This document shows, piece after piece, positions 20,849 to 36,624 of a DNA stretch of 64,000 nucleotides. The stretch's first letter is position 1; the number at the start of each line of letters is the position of its first letter. The stretch is from Bradyrhizobium liaoningense. GTDB taxonomy: Bacteria; Pseudomonadota; Alphaproteobacteria; Rhizobiales; Xanthobacteraceae. A model generated the notes under the pieces. That model was not told the origin of the DNA. It did no database searches and worked only from the letters and a program-made list of their open reading frames with translations. Where the stretch lies: NCBI RefSeq assembly GCF_018130955.1, contig NZ_JAFCJM010000005.1:1-64000 (forward strand). The letters run 5' to 3'. Both the position numbers and the translations under genes were made by a program.

Positions 20849-21504
20849 GCGTCACCCCGTGATGCCGATTCGCCGACCCGGCGTTCGAGCGCCCGCAACT
20901 CGCGCCGGAGCTCGGTGAGCTGCCGGGTGACTTCGTCGAAGTCGCGCTGGGTAGGGACCCCCAGGATGGCCGAAATGGTGTCGGCGATATCGGATTGCCG
21001 CGCGCGGAATTCGGTTGCCGCCTGCAGCAACTGCTTCTGTGCGACCAGAAACTCATCCGTGCGCTGGTTGGCGATCAGCTCTTCGTTGGCAAGCTCGTTC
21101 CAGGCGCCGAGCTCTGCGCGCCAGCCGGCGTCCTTGACCCTTTCATCCGGCGGCCTTGCACTGAATTGCTCCGCGGCGCGCATCCAGGGCTTTGAGGCCA
21201 CGACGTGATAGGCCGCGAGCTTGCTTTGCAGTTCGCTCCAGGCCGCCGCCACGCTGGCGAGCTTGCGGTCGAAATCGAGGACATCGGCAAGGCGCGGCCC
21301 CTTGGCCATCCGCTCGATGGCCTCAGCGAGGTCATTGCCGGCGCTCATGCCGAACCCGCGCTCGGCGGCGCGCTTCATGATGAAGGGCAGCATCGAGTTT
21401 GACCAGGTCTCGCTGATGTCGCTGGCACCGGCCATCGCGCGCCAGGACTCCATCCACTGCGCGGCGAGCGGCCCGAATGGATTGGGTTGACTCTCCTCAG
21501 CCAT
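20845..21504 (-). CDS. phaE: PhaE, class III PHA synthase partner subunit
   Basis: The 219-residue helical protein has a C-terminal heptad-like stretch (RDFDEVTRQLTELRRELRAL), as in PhaE subunits. An N-terminal segment (NPFGPLAAQWMESWRAMAG) is of the type found in PhaE/PhaM proteins. It overlaps phaC by four bases and the upstream alcohol dehydrogenase gene by eight, so all three are likely on one transcript. The ATG at 21504 is the start that fits this packing. Confidence 0.85.
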   Translation of the reverse strand: MAEESQPNPFGPLAAQWMESWRAMAGASDISETWSNSMLPFIMKRAAERGFGMSAGNDLAEAIERMAKGPRLADVLDFDRKLASVAAAWSELQSKLAAYHVVASKPWMRAAEQFSARPPDERVKDAGWRAELGAWNELANEELIANQRTDEFLVAQKQLLQAATEFRARQSDIADTISAILGVPTQRDFDEVTRQLTELRRELRALERRVGESASRGDA

Positions 21505-22690
21505 GGGAGGCCTGCACAAAACGGTTGCTGCCGTCGCCGAAGGCGGCGCTGTAGATCGCATAGGCGTCGTCGAGCGTCAGCTCCCTGGGGTTATTGACCA
21601 GGAGCCGCGTCTGCTTCATCGCGTCCTCGGCGAGCTTCTTCAGATCGTCACGGCCGATCCCGACATCGGCGAGCGAAGCCGGCACCTGGCAGTCGCGACC
21701 GATCGCCGTCATCTCGTCGATGAAGGCCCGCGCCTTCTCGGCCTGGCTGCCGCGCAGGCCGGGTTTGACGATCTCGGCGAGCTCCGCATAGAGCGCTTCC
21801 GCCGCCTGCAGATTGAACTCAAGCACATGGCGCAGCACCAGTGCGTTCGACAGTCCGTGGGGGACATGGAAGATCGCACCGATCGGATAGGCCAGCGCAT
21901 GGACGGCGGCGACCGGCGCGTTGGCGAAAGCCATGCCGGCAAGCATCGATCCCAGCAGCATCTGCGCGCGCGCCTCAAGGTCACTGCCGTCCTGGCAGAC
22001 GCGCCGCACATTCGCCGACAGCAATCCCAATGCCTGCCGCGCCAGTTGGTCGGACATGGGGTTTTTCTTGACCTTGCTGGTATAGGCTTCGATCGCATGC
22101 ACCATGGCATCGATGCCGGTGGCGGCAGTGACGGAGGCCGGCAGGCCCAGCGTCAGCTCCGGATCGAGGATCGCCCAGTCCGGAATCAGGACCGGCGAGA
22201 CCACGCCCTTCTTCTCCGTGGTCGGCGTGGTGACGATCGCGATCGGCGTCACCTCGGAGCCGGTGCCGGCGGTGGTCGGCACCAGCAGCAGCGGCAGGCG
22301 CTTGCCCTTGGCGAGGCCAACGCCATAGATGTCTTCGAGACGATCAGGCGTTTTCGCGAGATAGGCGACGAGCTTGGCGGTATCGAGCGCGCTGCCGCCG
22401 CCGATCGACAGCACCAGCTCGATCTTGTTGTTTTGGCAGGCGGCGACCGCGGCCTCCACCACCTGCGAGGGCGGATCGGCGACGACATCGTCGAACACGC
22501 TGACCTCGATGCCGGCCGCCGCCAGCGAGGCCTCGGCGCCTTTGGTGAGACCTGCGCCACGGACGCCTTTGTCGGTCACCAGCATGACGCGCTTGGCGCC
22601 GTAGCCCGCGACAAGTTCGTCGATCTTCCGTGAAGCGCCCGGCTCGAACAGAATGTTCGACGGCGCCTGAAAGGTGAATCGTCCGATCAT
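21497..22690 (-). CDS. Iron-containing alcohol dehydrogenase
   Basis: The 397-residue group III dehydrogenase has the nucleotide-binding motif SIGGGSALDTAK, PTTAGTGSE, and metal ligands in GIDAMVHAIEAY and HALAYPIGAIFHVPHG. Enzymes of this family reduce aldehydes with NAD(P)H; some are 4-hydroxybutyrate dehydrogenases (succinic semialdehyde reductases). The gene overlaps phaE, an unusual partner, and lies downstream of an aldehyde dehydrogenase gene. Reduction of a semialdehyde to a hydroxy acid for PHA is a reasonable inference, not shown. Confidence 0.9.
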   Translation of the reverse strand: MIGRFTFQAPSNILFEPGASRKIDELVAGYGAKRVMLVTDKGVRGAGLTKGAEASLAAAGIEVSVFDDVVADPPSQVVEAAVAACQNNKIELVLSIGGGSALDTAKLVAYLAKTPDRLEDIYGVGLAKGKRLPLLLVPTTAGTGSEVTPIAIVTTPTTEKKGVVSPVLIPDWAILDPELTLGLPASVTAATGIDAMVHAIEAYTSKVKKNPMSDQLARQALGLLSANVRRVCQDGSDLEARAQMLLGSMLAGMAFANAPVAAVHALAYPIGAIFHVPHGLSNALVLRHVLEFNLQAAEALYAELAEIVKPGLRGSQAEKARAFIDEMTAIGRDCQVPASLADVGIGRDDLKKLAEDAMKQTRLLVNNPRELTLDDAYAIYSAAFGDGSNRFVQASHG

Positions 22691-22735
22691 GTTCGCACTC
22701 CTCCTGGTCTTGTCATGGCGCTGCATGCAGCCGGC

Positions 22736-24121
22736 TCACGCCCGCCGATGCAGCACCACCATCTTTTCCTGTGTCATGTCGCGCATGGTGTAGGGAATGC
22801 CGCCGACGCCGTAGCCGGCCTCGCGCCGGCCGGCGAACGGCATCCAGTCGGTCCTGAACGTGGTGGGGTCGTTGATCATGACCGCGGAGGCATCCAGCCG
22901 CTCGCTGGCGCGCAGCGCCACGTCGATGTCGTCACTGAACACGCAGGCCTGGAACGGCACTCGCAGCGAATTCGCCTGTGCGATCGCGTGATCCAGCTGC
23001 GCATAGCGATAGAGGCAGACCACCGGACCGAACACCTCTTCACGCGACACTTTTGCTCCGGCCGGGGGTTCCAGCAGAACGGTGGGTTGCAGCGTGGTTT
23101 CAGAGAGACGCTCCCCGCCGATGGCCCGCTTCGCGCCAGCGGCCACAGCCTCGTCAATCCAGTTGGTGATGCGATCGACTTCCTTCGGGTGGATCAGCGG
23201 CCCGACTTCGGTTTGTGGAGAGGTCGGATCGCCGGTCCGCAGCTCTGCGACGCGGGCAACCAGGCGCTCACTAAATGCGTCGAAAATCTCATCGTGCACA
23301 TAAATGCGCTGGGTTGATACACAGACCTGGCCGGCATGGTAGAAGCCGCCCTTCACCAGCGGCTCGATGATGCGCTCGAGATTTGCGCTGCGGTCGACGA
23401 TCGCCGGCGCCACGCCGCCATGCTCGAGCGCCGAGCGGGTGCCATGCGCGAGCTTGCCGTGCAGCCGCCAGCCGACGCTGGCCGAGCCGATGAAGCTCAG
23501 GAAGCTGATGCGCGGATCGCACGCCAGTTGTTCGGCGAGCGCTGAGCCGCGAGGAATGAAGGTCTGGCACCACGCTTCCGGCAGGCCGGCCTCGTGCAGC
23601 AGCGCGACGAAGTCGCGGCAGCTCAGCGGCGTCGCGCTGGCCGGCTTGACGATGACAGGGCAACCGACGGCAATCGCCGGCGCGACCTGATGCACGATCA
23701 GATTGAGCGGGTGGTTGAATGCAGAAATCGCGAACACGACGCCGATCGGCTCGCGGGTCGTGAAGGCCCAGCGCTTCGCAGACGCCGCCGTCAGCCCCAT
23801 CGGAATCTCACGCCCGGCAAAGTTCCGCAATTCGTCGGCGGCGCAGTGCAGGCCGTCGATGGCCCGCGTGACCTCGATGATCGCATCCGTCAGCGGCTTG
23901 CCGCCCTCGCGGGCGATCTGTCGCGCGAAATGGTCGCGCCGCCCGTCCAGCAGGGCTGCCGTACGCCGCAACACCGCGACGCGCGCATGCGGCGCCAGCC
24001 AGCCGTCGCGATCGCCGAGGACGCGCAATGCGGCCCTTAGCTTCGCTTCCATCGCGTCGACATCGTCGACCGGGACCTCGGCAAACGGGACCCGGTCGAA
24101 CGCCTGCACAACTTGCAACAT
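22736..24121 (-). CDS. Aldehyde dehydrogenase family protein
   Basis: The 461-residue NAD(P)-dependent aldehyde dehydrogenase has N136 in SAFNHPLN, general base E233 in ALEHGGVAP, and catalytic cysteine C267 in HAGQVCVSTQR. A later motif is EEVFGPVV. The glycine-rich loop after the base reads EHGG instead of the common ELGG, so it diverges from textbook members. It starts 10 bp after the ThDP-enzyme gene, so the two are probably co-transcribed. Succinic semialdehyde is a possible substrate given the neighbours; the sequence alone does not fix it. Confidence 0.9.
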   Translation of the reverse strand: MLQVVQAFDRVPFAEVPVDDVDAMEAKLRAALRVLGDRDGWLAPHARVAVLRRTAALLDGRRDHFARQIAREGGKPLTDAIIEVTRAIDGLHCAADELRNFAGREIPMGLTAASAKRWAFTTREPIGVVFAISAFNHPLNLIVHQVAPAIAVGCPVIVKPASATPLSCRDFVALLHEAGLPEAWCQTFIPRGSALAEQLACDPRISFLSFIGSASVGWRLHGKLAHGTRSALEHGGVAPAIVDRSANLERIIEPLVKGGFYHAGQVCVSTQRIYVHDEIFDAFSERLVARVAELRTGDPTSPQTEVGPLIHPKEVDRITNWIDEAVAAGAKRAIGGERLSETTLQPTVLLEPPAGAKVSREEVFGPVVCLYRYAQLDHAIAQANSLRVPFQACVFSDDIDVALRASERLDASAVMINDPTTFRTDWMPFAGRREAGYGVGGIPYTMRDMTQEKMVVLHRRA

Positions 24122-24131
24122 CGTTCGCTCG

Positions 24132-25784
24132 TCAGGACGGTTCGACGCCGAGCTTGCGATTGCGCAGCTCATCGACCAGCACCCTGGTGTTCTCGGAATA
24201 ATCGATCGCGACATCGACGAGATGGACACCGCCGCCCTTGAAGGCTCCCTCCAGCGTCGGCAACAGCCCATCGACCGAGGTGACACGAGAACCCTTGGCG
24301 CCGTAGGACTCCGCGTAACGGACGAAATCGGGGTTGCCGAAGGTGAGGCCGAAATCCGGGAAGTCATCGACGGCCTGCTTCCAGCGGATCATGCCGTAGG
24401 CGCCGTCATTGAGGATCAGAACGACCAGATTGAGCTTAAGGCGGACCGCGGTCTCCAGCTCCTGGCTGTTCATCATGAAGCCGCCGTCGCCGCAGATCGC
24501 CATCACGCGGCGCTCCGGATAGAGCATCGCCGCCATCATCGCCGACGGCAGGCCGGCGCCCATGGTGGCCAGCGCATTGTCGAGCAGCAGCGTATTGGCG
24601 ACGTAGGTCCGGTAATTGCGGGCAAACCAGATCTTGTACATGCCGTTGTCGAGCGCGACGATGCCGTTCTCGGGAATCACCTGGCGGATGTCGTGCACCA
24701 GCCGCTGCGGTGTCACCGGCCAGCGGCTTTCGGTGGCGCGATCGGCGATCCGGCCGAGAATGCCCTCGCGCAACGGCAGGAGGGCCTTGGCGTTCGGCAA
24801 CCTGCCTTCGAGCCGGTCGGCCAGCAGCTCGAGGCTTGGGCCAACGTCGCCAACTACCTCCGCATGCGGGAAATAGACCTGCTCCACCGTTGCCGGCGTA
24901 TAGCTGACATGGATTACCTGCGGTCCCTTCGGACCCATGATGAAGGGCGGCTTCTCCACCGTGTCGTGGCCGATCGCGATGATCAGGTCGGCCTGATCGA
25001 TCGCCTCGTGCACGTAGTCGCGTTCGGATAGCGCGGCGGTGCCCATGTAAAGGCTGGTGCCGCCGGGCACGGTGCCCTTGCCCATCTGCGTCGTGAAGAA
25101 GGGAATGCCGGTCCGCCGCACGAAGCCAGCGATGCCGAAGGTCGAGCGCGGCCGGCTGGCGGCCGCGGCGAGCATGATCAGCGGACGCTTGGCCTCCAGG
25201 ATCATCTCGGCGGCGCGGTCGAGCGCCGCACGATGCGCGACCGGAATCTCGATCGGGTGGATCGGCACCATCGGCACCGGCTCGACCTCGTCACCCGCGA
25301 TATCCTCGGGCAGCTCGAGCAGGACCGGGCCCGGCCGCTCCTCCATCGCGACGCGGAAGGCGTCGCGCACCAGCGTCGGGATGCTCGCTGCGCTGACGAT
25401 CTGCCGGGAGAGCTTCGTTAGCGGCTTCATCGACGCGATCACGTCGACGATCTGAAAGCGCGCCTGCCGGCTGCTCATGATCGCCTTCTGGCCGGTGATC
25501 ATGACCATCGGCATCGCGCCGAGATGCGCATAGGCCGCACCGGTCGAGAAGTTCAGAGCGCCCGGACCGAGAGTGGAGATACACACGCCGGGCCGGCCGG
25601 TGAGCCTGCCATGCGTCGCCGCCATGAACGCTGCCGCCTGTTCATGACGGGTCAGAACCAGCTGAATCTTCGAACTACGCAGGGACTCGACGACGTCGAG
25701 ATTCTCCTCGCCCGGCACGCCGAAGATGCGATCGACCCCTTCATGCTCCAATGCCGCGACCAAAAGGTCAGAGCCTTTTACCAT
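24132..25784 (-). CDS. ThDP-dependent enzyme, acetolactate synthase-like (candidate 2-oxo acid decarboxylase)
   Basis: The 550-residue protein has the three domains of the acetolactate synthase/pyruvate oxidase family. The N-terminal Pyr domain has the catalytic glutamate E48 (TRHEQAAAF), and the C-terminal PP domain has the ThDP/Mg motif GDGGFMMNSQE...LND. The start reads FGVPGEENLD, the subgroup motif I recall for proteins annotated acetolactate synthase that include the cyanobacterial 2-oxoglutarate decarboxylase; biosynthetic and AlsS enzymes differ here. No small subunit gene is next to it. It sits between isocitrate dehydrogenase and aldehyde dehydrogenase genes, fitting 2-oxoglutarate to succinic semialdehyde. 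Acetolactate synthesis remains the alternative. Confidence 0.85.
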   Translation of the reverse strand: MVKGSDLLVAALEHEGVDRIFGVPGEENLDVVESLRSSKIQLVLTRHEQAAAFMAATHGRLTGRPGVCISTLGPGALNFSTGAAYAHLGAMPMVMITGQKAIMSSRQARFQIVDVIASMKPLTKLSRQIVSAASIPTLVRDAFRVAMEERPGPVLLELPEDIAGDEVEPVPMVPIHPIEIPVAHRAALDRAAEMILEAKRPLIMLAAAASRPRSTFGIAGFVRRTGIPFFTTQMGKGTVPGGTSLYMGTAALSERDYVHEAIDQADLIIAIGHDTVEKPPFIMGPKGPQVIHVSYTPATVEQVYFPHAEVVGDVGPSLELLADRLEGRLPNAKALLPLREGILGRIADRATESRWPVTPQRLVHDIRQVIPENGIVALDNGMYKIWFARNYRTYVANTLLLDNALATMGAGLPSAMMAAMLYPERRVMAICGDGGFMMNSQELETAVRLKLNLVVLILNDGAYGMIRWKQAVDDFPDFGLTFGNPDFVRYAESYGAKGSRVTSVDGLLPTLEGAFKGGGVHLVDVAIDYSENTRVLVDELRNRKLGVEPS

Positions 25785-25918
25785 TTATCCCACTCCCTGC
25801 TTTCGATCGCGCTGCCGGCGGATTGAGACGCCGGCGTTTCGACCAATCGGTAATTTGAGTTTCCGGCCGACACTTCGATCGGCCGCATCGCCTAAGACGC
25901 GGGTACCGTTCCGCGAAA

Positions 25919-26944
25919 TCACGCCGCGAGGCGCTTGATGATCGCGCCGGCGAAATCCGACGTCGAAACCTTGCCACCGAGATCGGCGGTGCGGACATTG
26001 TCGATCTGCAGGGTCTGCTCGATCGCCGTCCGCAACCGCGTGGCAAGATCGTCCTTGCCGACGTGCTTGAGCATCAGGCCGGCCGCCAACAGCAGCGCGA
26101 GCGGATTGGCGATCCCCTTGCCGGCAATATCGGGCGCCGAGCCATGCACCGCCTCGAAGATCGCGGCCTTCTCGCCGATATTGGCGCCCGGCGCCATGCC
26201 GAGGCCGCCGACGAGCCCGGACATCTGGTCGGACAGGATATCGCCGAACAGATTGGTGGTGACGATAACGTCGAACTGCCACGGGTTCATCACGAGCTGC
26301 ATGGCGCAGGCGTCCACGATGCGGTCATCCATCGCAATGCGCCCTTCATACTCCTTGGCGATCTCGCGGCCGGCCTGCAGGAACAGCCCGGTCAGCGCCT
26401 TCAGCACGTTCGCCTTGTGCACCACAGTGACCTTCTTGCGGCCGTGGCTGAGCGCATATTCGAATGCGAAGCGGACAATGCGCCGCGCCTCCGCATGGGT
26501 GTTGACGCCCGAGGAGATCGCGACCGCGTGCGGATCGTCGCCGACAGCGATGAAATGCTCGAACGCCACGTAGAGGCCCTCGATGTTCTCGCGGATCAGG
26601 ACGAGGTCGATATCCTCATAACGGCCGCCGGGCACCATCGTCTTCACCGGGCGGAGATTGGCATACAGCTCGAACTCCTCCCGCAGGCGGACGTTGACCG
26701 AACGGAAGCCGCCGCCGACCGGGGTCGTCAACGGTCCCTTCAGCGCGAGTTTGGTGCGACGGATGCTGTCGATCAGCACGCCCGGCAGCGGATCGCCTGA
26801 TCTCTCGATGCCGGCCATGCCGCCCTGCTGCACATCCCATTCGAACGGCGAGCCCAGCGCATCCAGAATGCGTGTCACTGCTGCCGTGATCTCGGGGCCG
26901 ATCCCGTCGCCGGGTATCAACGTCGCCGGAATTTTGCCTGACAT
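25919..26944 (-). CDS. NAD-type isocitrate dehydrogenase (isocitrate/isopropylmalate dehydrogenase family)
   Basis: The 341-residue beta-decarboxylating dehydrogenase has the substrate loop GGGFRSVNVRLR, then LIRENIEGLY, and the metal-binding aspartates in TNLFGDILSDQ. GSAPDIAGKGIANP follows. The short length and the RSVNVRLRE pattern match NAD-dependent isocitrate dehydrogenases more than the ~400-residue NADP form; isopropylmalate or homoisocitrate dehydrogenase is less likely. The second ATG (26944) was chosen because GGGG lies 8 bases upstream. It follows the aconitase gene by about 45 bp. Confidence 0.82.
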   Translation of the reverse strand: MSGKIPATLIPGDGIGPEITAAVTRILDALGSPFEWDVQQGGMAGIERSGDPLPGVLIDSIRRTKLALKGPLTTPVGGGFRSVNVRLREEFELYANLRPVKTMVPGGRYEDIDLVLIRENIEGLYVAFEHFIAVGDDPHAVAISSGVNTHAEARRIVRFAFEYALSHGRKKVTVVHKANVLKALTGLFLQAGREIAKEYEGRIAMDDRIVDACAMQLVMNPWQFDVIVTTNLFGDILSDQMSGLVGGLGMAPGANIGEKAAIFEAVHGSAPDIAGKGIANPLALLLAAGLMLKHVGKDDLATRLRTAIEQTLQIDNVRTADLGGKVSTSDFAGAIIKRLAA

Positions 26945-26990
26945 GTTCATTTCCCCTGTCCTGATTGCGTCTTGGGAGAGTGGCGGTCCG

Positions 26991-29687
<2,697 letters not shown>

Positions 29688-29748: not shown

Positions 29749-31152
29749 TCATTTCATGTATCCCATGATGATCAGCACCACCGTGACGGTGACCGCACCA
29801 CCGATGCGGGTGGCGATCTGCGCGAATGGCATCAGCTGCATGCGGTTGGCGGCCGTGAGGATCGCGACGTCGCCGGTGCCGCCCTGTCCGCTGTGGCAGG
29901 CATTCACGATCGCGGTTTCGATCGGGTACATGTTCATGAACTTGCCGACGGCGAAGCCGGTCGCCATGATCGTGACCACCGTCGACATGATGGTGATGAT
30001 GTTGGCGAAGTGGAACGCGGCGACGAGCTTGTCCCAGGGCGTCAGCGCGACACCGATCGCAAACAACAGCGGATAGGTCATGTTGGTCCGCACGAACTCG
30101 TAGACCACCATTCCGCCCTGCTGCAGCTCCGGCGACACCGCGCGGCTCACCTTGGCGAGCACCGCCAGGAACAGCATCGCTACCGGTGCCGGCAATCCGA
30201 ACAGATGATGGCAGAGCACGCCGAGCAAATAGAGCGTGATCGCGGTCAGGCCTGCGGCCGCAATCGTGCTGACGCCGACATGGCCGACACCCTGCTCCTT
30301 GCCGCCTTCCTCGTGCACCGCATGGATATCCAGCTCGTCGTCACCGTGCGGCTGCAGCCGGCCCTCGCCGGTGAGATGCGGGTATTTCTTGCCGACGAAG
30401 TTGAGTGCGCCGGAGAGCAGGATCGCCGTCAGGCTGCCCAGCATCACCGGTGGCAGCACCTGCGCGAACACCTCGCCCTGCGGCACGCCGGTCAACGCAG
30501 CGTAACCGATCGACAGCGGAATGGCGCCCTCACCGACGCCGCCCGCCATGATCGGAACCACGACGTAGAAGAAGGTGTGTTTTGCACCGAGGCCCAGCGC
30601 AGTCCCGACGGCCGTGCCCACTACAGCGGCGGCGATTGAACCGATCACGAGCGGCACGAAGATCTTCAGGAAACCGCGGATCAGCACGTCGCGGTCCATC
30701 GCAAAAATGCTGCCGACGATGATCGAGGCGATGAAGAGGTAGAGGAAGTTGGTCGACTTGGTGAAGTCGATGATGGATTTCTGGACCTGCGCCGGGATCA
30801 GGTGATAGAAGGCAAGCGCCGACGGAATAAAGGTGGCGAAGATCGCACCTGCTCCGATACTCCGCAGCAGCGGCAACCGCTTGCCGATCTCGGCGCAGGT
30901 GAATCCGCCGAGCACCAGCACGACGATCATGGTCGGGCCGTCCGACTTGACCTCTCCGGTATAGACGAGTGCAGCCACGACCAGGATCAGGAGAACATAG
31001 ATGGGAACCGGGATTATTCCGACCCGGAAATCGGTCAGGCGCCACCAGCCCTCGGGCCAGAACCGCCGGCTGACATCCGACGAAACCACCTTGTCCGGTC
31101 CGCCCGTGCTTTCACGATGCGAGGTAATACCGCCTGCGTCCTGCGCCGACAT
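29749..31152 (-). CDS. 2-hydroxycarboxylate (citrate/malate) sodium symporter, CitS/2HCT family
   Basis: The 467-residue membrane protein has the two signature loops of the 2HCT family, GGVGEGAIPLS and GQGGTGDVAIL, which form the substrate site. Family members carry citrate, malate or lactate with Na+ or H+. GGGAGGA precedes the ATG at 31152. The gene is directly upstream of aconitase, which favours citrate as the substrate. About 125 bp upstream of its start is a CTGTCA direct repeat shared with the next transporter gene (31226-31296 and 32727-32797). Confidence 0.9.
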   Translation of the reverse strand: MSAQDAGGITSHRESTGGPDKVVSSDVSRRFWPEGWWRLTDFRVGIIPVPIYVLLILVVAALVYTGEVKSDGPTMIVVLVLGGFTCAEIGKRLPLLRSIGAGAIFATFIPSALAFYHLIPAQVQKSIIDFTKSTNFLYLFIASIIVGSIFAMDRDVLIRGFLKIFVPLVIGSIAAAVVGTAVGTALGLGAKHTFFYVVVPIMAGGVGEGAIPLSIGYAALTGVPQGEVFAQVLPPVMLGSLTAILLSGALNFVGKKYPHLTGEGRLQPHGDDELDIHAVHEEGGKEQGVGHVGVSTIAAAGLTAITLYLLGVLCHHLFGLPAPVAMLFLAVLAKVSRAVSPELQQGGMVVYEFVRTNMTYPLLFAIGVALTPWDKLVAAFHFANIITIMSTVVTIMATGFAVGKFMNMYPIETAIVNACHSGQGGTGDVAILTAANRMQLMPFAQIATRIGGAVTVTVVLIIMGYMK

Positions 31153-31225
31153 GTCCGCAATCCTCCCTCTGATTTGTTTTTGCAAGGAGTAGACCCAGCC
31201 CACGCCCCGCAAAGGCGGGCATAGC

Positions 31226-31296
31226 GCGAACGTCTTCCAAGTCTTGTTGTTGGGAGGCAGGATAGATCGCGCAACCTGTCAATAAGCTGTCACGCG
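31226..31296. promoter_or_regulatory. Shared promoter block, copy A (upstream of the 2HCT carrier)
   Basis: About 70 bp here align almost base for base with 32727-32797. Both hold two CTGTCA half-sites 11 bp apart (here 31276-31281 and 31287-31292). On the coding strand this is TGACAGCTTATTGACAG, followed by CTATCCTGC. A TATCCT -10 candidate is placed so that its -35 region would overlap the repeat. Period and sequence fit an OmpR/PhoB-family activator: the TctD-like regulator at 33996-34661, or PhoB itself. Confidence 0.65.
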
Positions 31297-31335
31297 CCCC
31301 GCATCCGTACGGTCGTCGCCGAATGTTGGCAAGCT

Positions 31336-32685
31336 CTAGCTAACGTGCGCCTCGGCGCGAACTGGCGATCCCCAGGCTCGTCGTTGAATTCGCCCAAGCA
31401 GCAGAACCATGATGGCTCCTGCGGCAGTGAGGAATGCAAGAGGCAGCAAGGACAGCGGGAAACTTCCCGTCTGATCCTTGATCAGGCCGAGTAGCGACGT
31501 CGCCCCACCAGTCCCCAGGTGCGAAATCGTGTTGATCGCCGCAATGCCGCTCGCGGCCGTCGCGGGCGAAAGCACCTCCGTCGACAACGCCCAGAACGGG
31601 CCCTTGATCGCGTAATTGCCGATCAACACGAAGGTCAGCAGTAGCAGGGTGACCGTCAGCGACGACGTTAGGTTTGTGGCAAAGAGGCACAGTGCGGTCA
31701 GAGCAAGCGGCAAAGCGGTGTTCAAATAGCGCTCGCCATTCTTGTCTGCTCGCATGCCCCACAGAATCATGAAGACGGAGGCGATTCCAAAGGGAATCAT
31801 ATTCAGAAAGCCGGTCTGCAAGTTCGTCAGCCCAAACGACTTGAGGATCTGTGGCTGCCAAAGCGACAAGGCATTGCTCGTAGCCGAGCTGCCGGCATAG
31901 ATCAGGGCAAGAGCCCAGATGTAGGGATTTGACAGGACTTTCCAAAGCGGCAGATGCCCGACGGCGGTCGATCGCGACCGGCTCTCATACTCAAGGCGAC
32001 GTTGCAGCCACTCGCCTTGTTCGCGCGTCAACCATTTGGCCTCGGCGGGGCGGCTCGGCAAAACAAAGAAAATCGTCACGCCCAATAGCACTGCGGGCAC
32101 GGCTTCGACGATGAAGAGCCATTGCCAGCCATGCAAGCCCCAAACTCCGTCCAGTTCAAGCAGTGCTGCCGAGAGAGGAGAACCCACAAAGCTCGAGATC
32201 GGAATAGCCACCATGAAAGTTGCCACCACGCGCGCGCGATAGCGGGACGGAAACCAGTAGGTCAGATAGAGGATGACGCCGGGAAAAAAGCCGGCTTCGG
32301 CCGCGCCGAGAAGAAAGCGGCTCAAATAGAACGAGTAAGGTCCAACGATGAAGGCCGTTTCAATTCCGACCAGCCCCCAGGTGATCATGATGCGCGCGAT
32401 CCAGAGCCGGGCGCCTACCCTTTCCATTGCAAGGTTGCTCGGCACCTCGAACAGCACGTAGGCGACAAAGAACAGTCCGCCACCAATGCCGAACATCGCC
32501 TGGGTAAGACCAACGTCCCTGTTCATGGTGAGCGCGGCAAAACCCGCGTTCACCCGGTCAACATAGGCGATAAAGTAGCACAGCATGAGGAAGGGTAGCA
32601 GCCGCCACATCACCTTGCGCATGGTGTCGGCCTCGATGGCCGACGGCGGCTCTAGCTGCGCCGACGGAGCACTTAAACTGGCCAT
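31336..32685 (-). CDS. MFS transporter, anion:cation symporter (ACS) family
   Basis: The 449-residue protein has about 12 membrane helices. The N-terminal motif FIAYVDRVNAGFAALTMNRD is typical of the ACS family (tartrate, phthalate, glucarate and other organic anions), and AAEAGFFPGVILYLTYWFP follows. It is leftward and upstream of the 2HCT carrier gene. The same ~70-bp promoter block precedes both, so they are probably induced together. A tricarboxylate or other carboxylate is the likely substrate (inferred). Base composition appears less GC-rich than in neighbouring core genes. Confidence 0.88.
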   Translation of the reverse strand: MASLSAPSAQLEPPSAIEADTMRKVMWRLLPFLMLCYFIAYVDRVNAGFAALTMNRDVGLTQAMFGIGGGLFFVAYVLFEVPSNLAMERVGARLWIARIMITWGLVGIETAFIVGPYSFYLSRFLLGAAEAGFFPGVILYLTYWFPSRYRARVVATFMVAIPISSFVGSPLSAALLELDGVWGLHGWQWLFIVEAVPAVLLGVTIFFVLPSRPAEAKWLTREQGEWLQRRLEYESRSRSTAVGHLPLWKVLSNPYIWALALIYAGSSATSNALSLWQPQILKSFGLTNLQTGFLNMIPFGIASVFMILWGMRADKNGERYLNTALPLALTALCLFATNLTSSLTVTLLLLTFVLIGNYAIKGPFWALSTEVLSPATAASGIAAINTISHLGTGGATSLLGLIKDQTGSFPLSLLPLAFLTAAGAIMVLLLGRIQRRAWGSPVRAEAHVS

Positions 32686-32726
32686 GGCCGATCCTCCTCA
32701 TTGCAAACCCGTACGCGAGCGGGCCT

Positions 32727-32797
32727 TGCGAGCGTCTTCCCTGTCTTTTGTTGGGAAGCAGGATAGGTCGGCTAACCTGTCAGCAAGCTGTCATCAC
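32727..32797. promoter_or_regulatory. Shared promoter block, copy B (upstream of the MFS carrier)
   Basis: This is the counterpart of 31226-31296, with CTGTCA half-sites at 32777-32782 and 32788-32793 (11 bp apart). It lies about 92-108 bp upstream of the MFS start codon. The conserved downstream part (CTATCCTGCTTCCCAACAA on the coding strand) suggests that the start of transcription is also conserved. Confidence 0.65.
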
Positions 32798-32809: not shown

Positions 32810-33904
32810 TCAATACGCCTGCAGGAACTCTTTCCAATCCTTCAGAAAGCGCCGACGCTTGGCCTGATCCAGATAGGTCAACAGGTCGATGCTCAGCGCA
32901 ATCGGCCGTGCCGCTATTTTTGCGTCGGCATTGCCGGCAACTACGGGCTCCGTGTCCTCGCGAACCGAACCGAGTGAATGTCGGGCCAACAACGCCTGGC
33001 CGTTACGCGACAGCAGAAAATCGACGAAGCGCCTGGCGAGCTCCGGCTGTTGCGCGGACTGCGGGATCAGCGCGATTCTCGACAGCAACAATGTATAGTC
33101 GCTGGGAAATACGACGCCGATATCCTGATCGCGCTTGGCGCGCTCCAGCGCATATGAACCAAGCACGTTATAGGCCAGCACCAGATCGCCGGCACTGACC
33201 CGATCGATCATGGGACCGGACGAGGAGTAGAGCTTGACCTTTGCACGTCCCATCGCTGCCACCAGCTTCCAGGTCTGCGCCGTGACGCGCACGTCCTGTG
33301 TGATGAACAGCAGTCCCGTTCCGCTTCGCTCGGGATCGTAGGTCGCGATTTTACCCTGAAACACCGGCAGATGATCCGTCAGCAAGCGCAACAATTCCGC
33401 ATGGTCTTTCGGAACCAGGCCTTCGTGCAGTAGCCTCTTGTTGAAGACGATCACGACCGGCTCAGCCGTGACGCCGTACGCCCGATCCTTCCAGCGCGCC
33501 CAGCCGAAAATCCCGTCGGCCTCGGCCGAGCGGTACTCGGCCGCATATCCGTCATTGGCGAGCTTGATCTGGAGGTCCATCGAAGAACTCCATACGACGT
33601 CGGCAGTGCCTTTTGTCCCGGCGGACTTCACGACCTGGTCGAACAGGTCGGTGGACAGAATCTTGGAATATTCTACGGCAACGCCTGGGTTTAGCTTCGT
33701 AAACTCGGAGACCAGGTCGGCGGCTTCGGACAGATCCGTCGTCGTCTTGACCACGAGGCTGACCTGCGGCCGGTCGGTTGCGGCCTTCTGGCCTGCGCCA
33801 GGGTCTTGGGCGAAGGCGAGGACGCAAAGGGACATGTTGACCGCAAGCCCGACGATACCGGCGAGCGGGCGGCAAACGGGCGAAGCAAGGCAAGCCAGTC
33901 GCAT
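32810..33904 (-). CDS. Orphan periplasmic extracellular solute-binding protein
   Basis: The 364-residue protein has a signal peptide (to about residue 33) and a type 2 periplasmic-binding fold like the iron(III)/organic anion binding proteins of ABC systems (SLVVKTTTDLSEAADLVSEF, later VYNK-like VVIVFNKRLL). No permease or ATPase gene lies beside it. It is divergent from the TctD/TctE-like system. The arrangement suggests that it presents a ligand to the sensor kinase rather than feeding a transporter. That is inferred. Confidence 0.75.
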   Translation of the reverse strand: MRLACLASPVCRPLAGIVGLAVNMSLCVLAFAQDPGAGQKAATDRPQVSLVVKTTTDLSEAADLVSEFTKLNPGVAVEYSKILSTDLFDQVVKSAGTKGTADVVWSSSMDLQIKLANDGYAAEYRSAEADGIFGWARWKDRAYGVTAEPVVIVFNKRLLHEGLVPKDHAELLRLLTDHLPVFQGKIATYDPERSGTGLLFITQDVRVTAQTWKLVAAMGRAKVKLYSSSGPMIDRVSAGDLVLAYNVLGSYALERAKRDQDIGVVFPSDYTLLLSRIALIPQSAQQPELARRFVDFLLSRNGQALLARHSLGSVREDTEPVVAGNADAKIAARPIALSIDLLTYLDQAKRRRFLKDWKEFLQAY

Positions 33905-33995: not shown

Positions 33996-34661
33996 TTGCG
34001 TATCCTGATTATCGAGGACGATACGTCGCTGGTGAGCGGGCTGAAGAAAGCGCTGGCACCGGCCGGCTTCGCCGTCGATCATGAGATCAGCGGCGCGGCG
34101 GCGATCGAGATCGTGCCTTCCGAAGCCTACTCGCTGATTGTACTCGATCTGGGCCTGCCAGACCTGCCGGGCCAGGAGGTGTTGCGCCGACTACGCAGCA
34201 GGGGCTGCAAGGTGCCGATCCTGATCCTCACGGCGCTGGGAGAAGTGAAGGACAAGGTCAAATGCCTCAACCTTGGGGCGGACGATTATCTCACCAAACC
34301 GTTCGACCTCGATGAATTCGAGGCACGGGTAAAAGCTCTTGTGCGGCGCGGCAAGGGACGCCCCGATCCGATCCTGCGATGCGGATCCCTGTCGCTCGAA
34401 ACGTCTACCGCGTCCGCCACGATCGACGACAAGCCATTGACGCTGCGCAGACGAGAAGTCACGGTCCTCGAAATCCTGATGTCGCAGGCAGGTCGCCTCG
34501 TGCGCAAGGAACGGCTGATTTCAGAGGTGTTCGGCTTCGACGACCCGGTAGCACCTAACGCGATCGAACTCTATGTCGGGCGGCTGCGGCAAAAGCTCGG
34601 CCCGAACGGACCAAAAATCAAGACAGTGCGAGGGCTCGGCTACCTGATGGAGGACAGGTGA
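33996..34661 (+). CDS. Response regulator, OmpR family, TctD-like
   Basis: The 221-residue protein has a receiver domain with acidic pocket IIEDD, phospho-acceptor D51 (VLDLGLPD) and K101 (LTKPFD), then a winged-helix DNA-binding domain ending [10 protein letters not shown]-like ([12 protein letters not shown]). Start: a TTG at 33996 preceded by GAGGA at a spacing of 8 gives the normal N-terminus LRILIIEDD; a longer upstream frame is open but not homologous. Its stop overlaps the kinase start (GTGA). TctD regulators control tricarboxylate transport, which suits the neighbouring carriers. Confidence 0.9.
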
Positions 34662-36091
34662 CACCAGGAAAAGCCCCTTCGTTGCGCCGCGCGCTGCTTC
34701 TCAATCTGCTCATTCCGACCAGCCTGCTCGCTGCCGCGCTTGGACTTGCCGGGTTGCTGTTGATCCACAAGACCATCGAAACGGCTTACGACCGCGTGCT
34801 TGACGGTTCGGTAAAGGCTATCGCCGAACGGATTGCCGTCGAAGACGGTGAAATCTCGGTCGATCTGCCGCAAGTCGCGCTCGGGATGCTGGAGACGAGA
34901 GCCAATGACAGCGTCTACTACAGTGTGTCCTACGATCAGACGCTCGTGACGGGCTATCAGGACTTGCCGCTTGCAGACGCGACCGCGATTCCGGTGGGTA
35001 CGATCAAGCATCTCAATTCCCTTTACAGGGGGACAGAGGTACGCGTGGCGGCCATGACTCAGGCTGCGTACGGCAAGTCGCCGCCTGTCCTGATAGAAGT
35101 CGCCGAGACGACGAACGGAAGAGCAACGGCACGACGCGAACTCCTGCTCGCGCTGGTGGCGCTGGAAATCGGTATCATCGCCACGGCTGCCGTTCTGGTG
35201 TGGTTTGCTGTGCGGCGCGGACTTTCGCCGCTGGTGGACCTCGGACGCGAGATCGACGCGCGGCAATTCGGTGCTGGAACGAGTCTTCGACGGCTGGAGC
35301 TCGAACATATCCCCTATGAGGCGCATCCGCCTGTTCGCGCGATCAATGAACTTTTCGCCCGGCTCGAGGCGGCGATCCAGGTGATCCGGGATTTCATTGC
35401 AGATGCGTCGCATCAGATGAAAACGCCGCTCGCTTCGTTGCGGGTCCATTTGGCGCTGCTGCAGCGTGATTCCGGGCATCTGTCGGAAAGTATCGATACC
35501 ATTGCCGAGATCGAGAGATCGACGAAACATCTCGATCGGTTGGCGGCCCAGCTCATCGCGATGGCGCGCGCGGAACAAGCGGCCGTTGCGACGCCAAATG
35601 TCGATGCTGTGCCCACCGATCTCGTCGCGAGCACGAGCGAGGCCATCGGAACGATGGCTCCCTTTGCAGCAGCGAAAAATGTTGAGCTGGCGTTTGAGAC
35701 CGAAATCGAGAACGCACAGGTCCACGCGGATCCATCGATGCTGCACGACATTCTGACCAACCTGATCGACAATGCGATCAGGTACAATCACGACGGCGGG
35801 TCCGTTGTCGTCAGCGTTTTCGCGAGCAGCGGCCGCTATGCCGTGAAGATCGCCGATAGCGGACCGGGGATTGCCCCTGAACATCGGGAGCGTGTGTTCG
35901 ACCGCTTCTATCGCATCCCGGCGGCCAATCGTCCGGCGGGCTCGGGACTCGGACTCTCCATCGTCCGCACCCTGCTGCGGCAGGATGCCGGCACAATCGT
36001 ATTGACGGAAGGTATCGACGGCCGCGGCCTCGCCGTTACGGTCAGCTTCGCCGCGATAAATCCGCACCTTCAGGCACATCAACGGGGGTGA
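34658..36091 (+). CDS. Sensor histidine kinase, TctE-like
   Basis: The 477-residue kinase has a membrane segment at about 12-37, a periplasmic domain of about 125 residues, a second membrane segment at about 162-185, a HAMP-like linker, the phospho-acceptor H252 in [12 protein letters not shown], and ATPase boxes N (LIDNAIRYN), G1 (IADSGPGI) and G2 (GSGLGLSIV). It starts with a GTG that overlaps the regulator stop. It probably senses a carboxylate, directly or through the solute-binding protein encoded next door, and phosphorylates the regulator. Confidence 0.9.
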
Positions 36092-36624
36092 ACCCGCGTA
36101 TTTCGATTTGAGGCCACATGCTGTACGCATCGAGCACCACAAGAACAGGGCGTTGGTCTGGCATCCGCTCGAAGAGACTCTCGACGGAGAGACCGTCAAG
36201 TTTTACGCCGAAGCGGAGGACATTTTGGGCCATCTGCCCAAGCTCGGCGTCCCGATGATCATGCGTCGGATCCAAAGGGGTGAACGCAAGGGCGATGCCA
36301 AGTGTGGTCCTACCCCGGCATGGAAAAGTGGTGCAGCAGATGCGCAAGAAGATTGACGGCGTGTCGAAGCTGTTCACGCTTGATGCCTGCCGGCACGGCG
36401 GCATGACCGAGCTTGAGGAAGCCGAACTAATAACGGACGGCCACGGTCGTGCGCTCTCCGGACACAAGACCGCACAGGCCTATCGAGGTTATGCCAAGGA
36501 AACGATGATGCGAGCTTTGGCTGCGACTCGTAACCTGCCTTCGGTCTTCGGCCAAAACGAAACCAGCACAGAATTTCCAAACGAGGCAAACCGATTTCCA
36601 AATGCATTGGAAACTCAGTCTTGA
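36092..36624 (+). pseudogene. Broken tyrosine recombinase (phage/island integrase) remnant
   Basis: Two frames together resemble the C-terminal half of a tyrosine recombinase. The first encodes VRIEHHKNRALVWHPLEETL to GVPMIMRRIQRGERKG. After a frameshift near 36290-36330, the second encodes KLFTLDACRHGGMTELEEAE and later ALSGHKTAQAYRGYAKETMM, including the RHGG and GHK...Y catalytic boxes. The N-terminal half is missing. It abuts the 3' end of the tRNA-Gln gene, the usual attachment site of such integrases. Confidence 0.8.

Follow-up and report, generated by a model that had tools for sequence, protein, structure and literature searches.

Two unrelated carrier genes of Bradyrhizobium liaoningense share a promoter module with TGACAG direct repeats that is probably read by a TctD-like response regulator

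The window, by which we mean the whole 64,000-nucleotide stretch of Bradyrhizobium liaoningense DNA that was analyzed, contains a cluster of genes for uptake, signaling and metabolism (Table 1). Two of these genes, encoding a 2-hydroxycarboxylate transporter (2HCT) and an MFS carrier, are each preceded by a promoter block of similar sequence, and an earlier note on this DNA was right to call the two carriers unrelated, since the first matches PF03390 (2HCT) and the second PF07690 (MFS_1). The 2HCT gene probably starts at the ATG at position 31152, picked for its Shine-Dalgarno-like sequence, and the aconitase gene downstream is likely to be on one transcript with it. For the MFS carrier, the NCBIfam models TIGR02332 and TIGR00893 both score under their cut-offs. 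No permease or ATPase partner of the solute-binding protein was found among the nine neighbouring genes scanned, nor was a tctCBA transporter found among them near the regulator gene, where genes for the 2HCT, the MFS carrier and the solute-binding protein are located instead. The best NCBIfam model for the regulator is TctD, yet its 230.4 bits fall below the cut-off of 337. Because of this score and of the lack of tctCBA nearby, we describe the protein as TctD-like and not as a proven orthologue. The adjacent sensor kinase carries a 2CSK_N domain, which is typical of TctE.

Table 1. Genes and putative promoter elements of the locus (positions in the window).
Feature	Position	Strand	Evidence or remarks
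Isocitrate/isopropylmalate dehydrogenase family	25919..27055	-	PF00180, E 1.1e-97; reading frame as listed, start not fixed
Aconitase AcnA	26991..29687	-	TIGR01341, 1332 bits vs cut-off 945; downstream of 2HCT
2-hydroxycarboxylate transporter (2HCT)	29749..31152	-	PF03390, E 7.6e-141
2HCT block, leader part	31226..31258	-	Resembles MFS block leader; score 22 vs null 99th percentile of 12
2HCT promoter, putative -10	31259..31264	-	TATCCT, from sequence; 11 bp from operator
2HCT promoter, putative operator	31276..31292	-	TGACAG (31287-31292), CTTAT, TGACAG (31276-31281)
MFS carrier, HpaX / galactonate-transporter-like	31336..32685	-	PF07690, E 3.1e-40; ATG at 32685
MFS block, leader part	32727..32759	-	Probably copied from 2HCT promoter (leader comparison)
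MFS promoter, putative -10	32760..32765	-	TATCCT, from sequence; 11 bp from operator
MFS promoter, putative operator	32777..32793	-	TGACAG (32788-32793), CTTGC, TGACAG (32777-32782)
Periplasmic solute-binding protein	32810..33904	-	SBP_bac_8 / SBP_bac_11
TctD-like response regulator	33996..34661	+	PF00072 and PF00486 (receiver and winged helix)
TctE-like sensor kinase	34658..36091	+	2CSK_N (PF08521, E 1.3e-32), HisKA, HATPase_c
Operator form for comparison with the published TctD logo (PMC4513871, figure 3B)			TGAAAGGTT

Behind the 2HCT gene, the region 21497-29687 (minus strand) encodes aconitase, a protein of the isocitrate dehydrogenase family, an acetolactate-synthase-like TPP enzyme, an aldehyde dehydrogenase and an iron alcohol dehydrogenase, a gene set that is partly retained in several relatives. 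It is a guess that the TPP enzyme might be a 2-oxoglutarate decarboxylase, with a route from citrate through succinate semialdehyde to succinate. Passages of PMC10418658 cite such an activity for B. japonicum; the enzyme's 17 solved relatives (E 1e-60) go by the names acetolactate synthase or BbmA.

The two blocks occupy positions 31226-31296 and 32727-32797, with the minus strand as coding strand, and align with 63 identities over 78 columns, 3 of them gap columns, which corresponds to about 81% identity with gaps included. Their local alignment score is 45.5; when 2000 pairs were shuffled with dinucleotides preserved, scores averaged 9.1 (sd 1.6) and never exceeded 19. The resemblance is real and far above that of shuffled sequences, and the earlier description of blocks that align 'almost fully' is slightly strong only in its wording. 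On the plus strand CTGTCA is found at 31276 and 31287 and again at 32777 and 32788, exactly where the earlier note had placed it. Read in the coding direction, both blocks have in common TGACAG-CTTNN-TGACAG-GTT..CGA.CTATCCTGC.TCCCAACA, with the direct repeat and the -10 both contained in the first 34 bases of each block. TATCCT lies 11 bp past the second half-site in both blocks, a geometry that agrees with the proposal of the same note that the repeat is located in the -35 region. No -35 element was found in either block, with 0-3 of the 6 consensus letters present at spacings of 15-19 bp.

The extended operator motif used in genome scans was YGACAGSTTNNTGACAGS. At up to 2 mismatches it produced 29 matches in the 8.29-Mb genome, namely the two blocks, which are exact, and 27 sites that differ at 2 positions, with no site differing at just one, while the reversed motif, used as a control, gave 25 matches in all at the same tolerance. 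The earlier note had considered that the block might be a general repeat present at many unrelated loci; only two exact motif sites were found, and we reject a dispersed genomic repeat on this pattern search. A BLAST search of the genome with the 2HCT block, which returned the block itself and four pieces of 14-20 bp, would alone be weak evidence, since it missed the MFS copy and is insensitive. The shorter pattern CTGTCA-N5-CTGTCA occurs at 4 sites in the 8.29 Mb, 2 being the blocks and 2 being elsewhere. One of the latter (L081 6334-6350; G000:C115:93333-93349) is a pho-box-like TGACAG direct repeat some 40 bp ahead of a PhoU_div/PHO4 (pit) operon. The other (L082 6657-6673; G000:C123:31656-31672), a repeat of the same kind, spans the start codon called for a phosphatidylserine decarboxylase (psd) gene. 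At both sites the coding strand also reads TGACAG, as in the carrier blocks; both half-sites of the two repeats are without the G/C after TGACAG. Compared to YGACAGSTTNNTGACAGS, the psd site has 2 mismatches, and the pit site is absent from the 2-mismatch list.

The distribution of the motif in same-genus genomes ties it to the regulator. A close regulator, with at least 58% identity, was present in 9 of 195 genomes, and a further 9 encode a regulator with 45-47% identity. The motif YGACAGSTTNNTGACAGS was found in 16 of the 195 genomes: every one of the 9 that encode the close regulator, plus 7 of the 186 that do not (Fisher P 1.2e-11, uncorrected for relatedness), while the reversed-motif control gave 2 matches in the same set. 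Furthermore, all 14 motif matches in the nine close-regulator genomes lie at most 11 kb from the regulator gene. Among the seven genomes that have the motif without a close regulator (G317 being the seventh), the match precedes a pit-like operon in G316 and G235, an assignment made by Pfam for the G316 gene only and by eye for the G235 protein, and from their position these matches are likely to be PhoB sites; in G347, G306, G312 and G289 the match is inside long reading frames and was taken as chance. The accompanying genes are also patchy in distribution, with 2HCT relatives (E 1e-60) in 13 of 296 family genomes, that of the window included, and relatives of the neighbouring binding protein (E 1e-40) in 14 of 195 same-genus genomes. 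One locus (L019, in genome G095) has the 2HCT gene first and the MFS gene about 100 bp on, as counted between matched coding parts, and the block is present at the 2HCT gene only.

Regulator loci of a wider range were compared through 80 named loci of several genera, Bradyrhizobium included, which are the best 80 of 283 fetched by regulator alignment; at least 4 of the 80 (L115, L117, L120 and L132) repeat genomes already counted above (G448, G435, G392 and G408), so that the two sets are not independent samples. When 1 mismatch was allowed, TGACAG-N5-TGACAG was present in 37 of the 80 loci, and spacers of 2, 3, 4, 6, 7 and 8 gave 0, 2, 2, 2, 0 and 0 loci, respectively. With the relaxed half-site [TC]GA[CA]AG, a spacer of 5 (11-bp period) was recovered in 50 of the 80 loci, and each of the remaining spacers between 1 and 12 in 0-7 loci. 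Loci without TGACAG-N5-TGACAG can carry variants of it. For example, CGACAGATTGGCGACAGGTTG..CTATAGT or similar sequences occur at Azospirillum loci, and Pseudomonas mosselii (L170) has TGAAAGGTTAGCGAAAGGTT..CCTAGCAT before an OprD-family porin gene beside the regulator. A second, distant clade of six loci (L054-L059), whose regulators show about 40% identity, carries the related box TGACAGGGTTYTGACAG. In these six loci a 2HCT gene lies a few kb off, and at L054 the first gene behind the box encodes a 507-aa protein with no Pfam match.

The half-site letters shift with the regulator clade, with TGAAAG in Pseudomonas, CGACAG in Azospirillum and TGAAAG or TGACAG in Novosphingobium. This change in step, together with the linkage of the box to a regulator of the adjacent type in nine genomes and across genera, bears on the idea that another OmpR-family regulator of the genome, and not the adjacent one, reads the box. 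The genome offers many candidates (a PhoB-family model finds many regulators, among 133 matches of all response-regulator kinds), but the joint pattern makes such a reader very improbable.

The distance from box to TA was computed on 64 non-identical boxes, obtained from 79 box rows by leaving out 14 repeated sequences and one row of the window (19323) that is inside a long reading frame and was taken as chance. The first TA in the searched range lies 10-11 bp on in 51 boxes, 8 bp in 3 and 15 bp in 1; no TA was found in that range in 9, six of which are the distant boxes of L054-L059, leaving 13 of the 64 boxes off the 10-11 bp spacing. A box of this type was absent in 29 of the 80 named loci, whose regulators (45-51% identity, except for L118, which has 75% identity and no more than 220 bases of upstream sequence) may recognize a different sequence. 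The box was present in 48 of the 52 loci that have the binding-protein gene and in 3 of the 28 that lack it, a relationship confounded with regulator clade. Since the box tracks both regulator relatedness and the binding-protein gene, all box counts are inflated by relatedness.

The nature of the genes behind the boxes was computed for 20 of 23 boxes that had been hand-picked for their downstream genes. Pfam scans revealed MFS, 2HCT, solute-binding proteins, TctC, OprD porin, aconitase and ATP-citrate-lyase-like products, with one product of 507 aa that has no Pfam match; note that the reading frames scanned for L125 and L127 begin 300-430 bases past the box. Tri- and dicarboxylates are the theme of the genes behind these sampled boxes. 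Three Methylobacterium boxes (L144 8126, L124 5618 and L125 5760) stand before genes whose products match ATP-citrate-lyase citrate-binding domains, assigned by Pfam for L144 and L125 and by a similar sequence start only for L124. No box was found in the window between the binding-protein and regulator genes, and autoregulation of this divergent region through the box is not indicated, while Azospirillum and Novosphingobium loci do have a box between the two genes.

We consider it very likely that the adjacent TctD-like regulator reads the shared block as a promoter module and switches on the carriers when citrate or a similar compound is available. The earlier note had named both the TctD-like regulator and PhoB as candidates; co-occurrence, phylogenetic footprinting and gene content support the first well, and the second is weakened by the absence of the motif from 179 of the 195 genomes and by a repeat that is reversed relative to that of pstS. 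If the blocks were pho boxes, PhoB acting on CTGTCA-N5-CTGTCA, alone or in competition with the TctD-like regulator, would tie carboxylate uptake to phosphate starvation. The half-site is indeed the E. coli core CTGTCAT, arranged in 11-nt units, as described in passages of PMC4415409; the other two exact genome sites stand before the pit operon and at the psd start and share the TGACAG coding-strand reading; and passages of PMC4513871 place adjacent PhoB and TctD sites on common P. aeruginosa promoters. Furthermore, the C-terminal regions of this genome's PhoB (G000:C142:8351-9028) and of the TctD-like regulator have GRLR in common. We take this segment to be the DNA-reading helix, and some cross-binding is plausible because both proteins share it.

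PhoB is expected in the genomes of the genus, but the motif is restricted to 16 of the 195 and tracks the TctD-like regulator. Upstream of pstS in the genome itself (L114), the pho-box-like repeat has the coding-strand sequence CTGTCA..CGTCA (CTGTCATCCAGCCGTCAC; one promoter, with one mismatch), opposite in direction to the carrier blocks. The pit and psd sites, unlike the carrier blocks, are without the G/C after TGACAG, and no phosphate gene was found among the nine genes scanned in the window. With this distribution and the reversed orientation relative to the genome's own pstS, PhoB is disfavoured as the main regulator, and we regard the blocks as quite unlikely to be pho boxes; PhoB is a possible second reader of the box beside the TctD-like regulator. 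PhoB acts directly on pit1 of Sinorhizobium meliloti. According to passages of PMC8829014, pit1 belongs to the genes that phosphate stress represses most strongly in that species, which would fit a blocking site.

We also entertain, as an unlikely elaboration, that the TctD-type operator of this clade has become letter-identical to the pho-box core, making PhoB and the TctD-like regulator rivals for the same half-sites. If true, citrate uptake would be controlled by a one-site logic gate that combines a carbon signal with phosphate starvation. Plant hosts exude citrate under phosphate shortage, and such a gate would suit a root-associated bacterium on a citrate-exuding host. Passages of PMC4513871 describe PhoB and TctD of P. 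aeruginosa as having neighbouring sites and opposed action on a few promoters, with tctD and opdH-tctCBA given the TctD motif only; sites there are adjacent, whereas in the gate proposed here the same half-sites would be contested.

How the second block arose can be followed in the leaders, compared over block positions 36-100 against a null distribution with a 99th percentile of 12 and a maximum of 14.5 (n=3000). The MFS leader of the window matches the 2HCT leaders of its own genome (22), of G338 (24) and of Bradyrhizobium sp. Ec3.3 (20), more weakly those of G406 (16) and G435 (14), and fails against those of G448 (10) and G095 (8). The MFS leaders of G448 and G435 score 5-10 against the 2HCT leaders and so match none of them, although both genomes retain intact boxes, in one of which C replaces the first T. 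Because these two genomes keep boxes with unmatched leaders, the box is probably old and common to both promoters by function. In the lineage to which the window and G338 belong, a copy of the 2HCT promoter and its leader probably became, or replaced, the promoter of the MFS gene. Recent duplication of a segment alone, with no regulatory role for the blocks, would account for the likeness past the -10 (score 22), a match that conservation of the operator by itself does not require. It would however leave unexplained that G448 and G435 keep both boxes, with TA 10-11 bp on, despite unmatched MFS leaders, and that the box is conserved before other genes in other genera; as the sole cause, duplication is exceedingly improbable.

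If the box is read by the TctD-like regulator, the following mechanism can be proposed. Periplasmic citrate, or a similar 2-hydroxy- or tricarboxylate, would activate the 2CSK_N kinase, to which the lone binding protein would probably present the ligand, by analogy with BctC and BctE (PMC5812351, in passages). The kinase would phosphorylate the regulator, two protomers of which would, judging from the family and the motif, bind head to tail on TGACAG(G/C)TTNN-TGACAG(G/C)TTNN with its 11-bp period. The repeat appears to take the -35 place, with TATCCT starting 11 bp on; because of this layout, RNA polymerase would need a bound activator, and the regulator is predicted to recruit it to a promoter that has no -35 element, an architecture from which we infer activation over repression. 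Both carriers would be switched on, and through the 2HCT promoter also the aconitase and isocitrate dehydrogenase genes behind it, such that, given the gene order and presumed co-transcription, carriers, aconitase and isocitrate dehydrogenase would be produced together.

Known systems provide a frame for this proposal. The TctD-TctE systems of Pseudomonas aeruginosa and Salmonella (tctCBA, opdH-tctCBA) likewise place an OmpR-type regulator and a kinase beside tricarboxylate uptake genes, and passages of PMC10865840 report citrate-responsive induction of the opdH porin promoter by P. aeruginosa TctED. The same box layout precedes an OprD porin gene in P. mosselii. Differences lie in the targets, which here are 2HCT and MFS genes with aconitase and isocitrate dehydrogenase and no tctCBA, in the half-site, TGACAG here and TGAAAG in P. 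mosselii, and in the regulator, which is under the TctD model cut-off. In Bordetella pertussis, the citrate response of BctDE-BctC needs a periplasmic binding protein in addition to the two-component system, according to passages of a review (PMC5812351). A periplasmic binding protein likewise accompanies the two-component system here; BctC, however, is of the TctC type and also serves a transporter, whereas the protein of the window belongs to the SBP_bac_8 / SBP_bac_11 type, and the scanned genes include no permease. The pho box of PhoB has the same CTGTCA half-site and 11-bp period (PMC4415409, in passages), and differs in that the blocks are reversed relative to the gene, have a (G/C)TT extension after each TGACAG, and are linked to a TctD-like regulator and not to phosphate genes.

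The blocks are an ordinary kind of operator, and it is their coincidence in sequence with the pho box that is of interest, as the targets of a TctD-like regulator and of PhoB collide. The analysis provides an explicit candidate operator sequence for a widespread TctD-like group, mostly with a binding-protein partner, that is seen in Bradyrhizobium, Methylobacterium, Azospirillum, Xanthobacter, Novosphingobium and others. This operator predicts which carriers respond to citrate-type signals, and the copying of a whole promoter suggests a route by which an unrelated carrier can enter a regulon. A search of the literature by titles and abstract openings found nothing pointing to this operator in relatives of Bradyrhizobium; TGACAG together with TctD matched only unrelated work on sulfur oxidation.

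Two minor features of the locus deserve mention. The leaders at 31200-31258 and 32700-32759 (minus strand) hold a GGAAGACGTTCGC-like stretch that is partly kept in the 2HCT leaders of G338, G435, G406, G448 and Ec3.3 and is a possible leader RNA element. Downstream of the kinase gene, a short reading frame at 36280-36624 (plus strand) looks by eye like the end of a tyrosine recombinase. This frame and the scattered occurrence of the regulator, which reaches at least 58% identity in 9 of 195 genomes, are hints that the regulator locus may have been gained by horizontal transfer.
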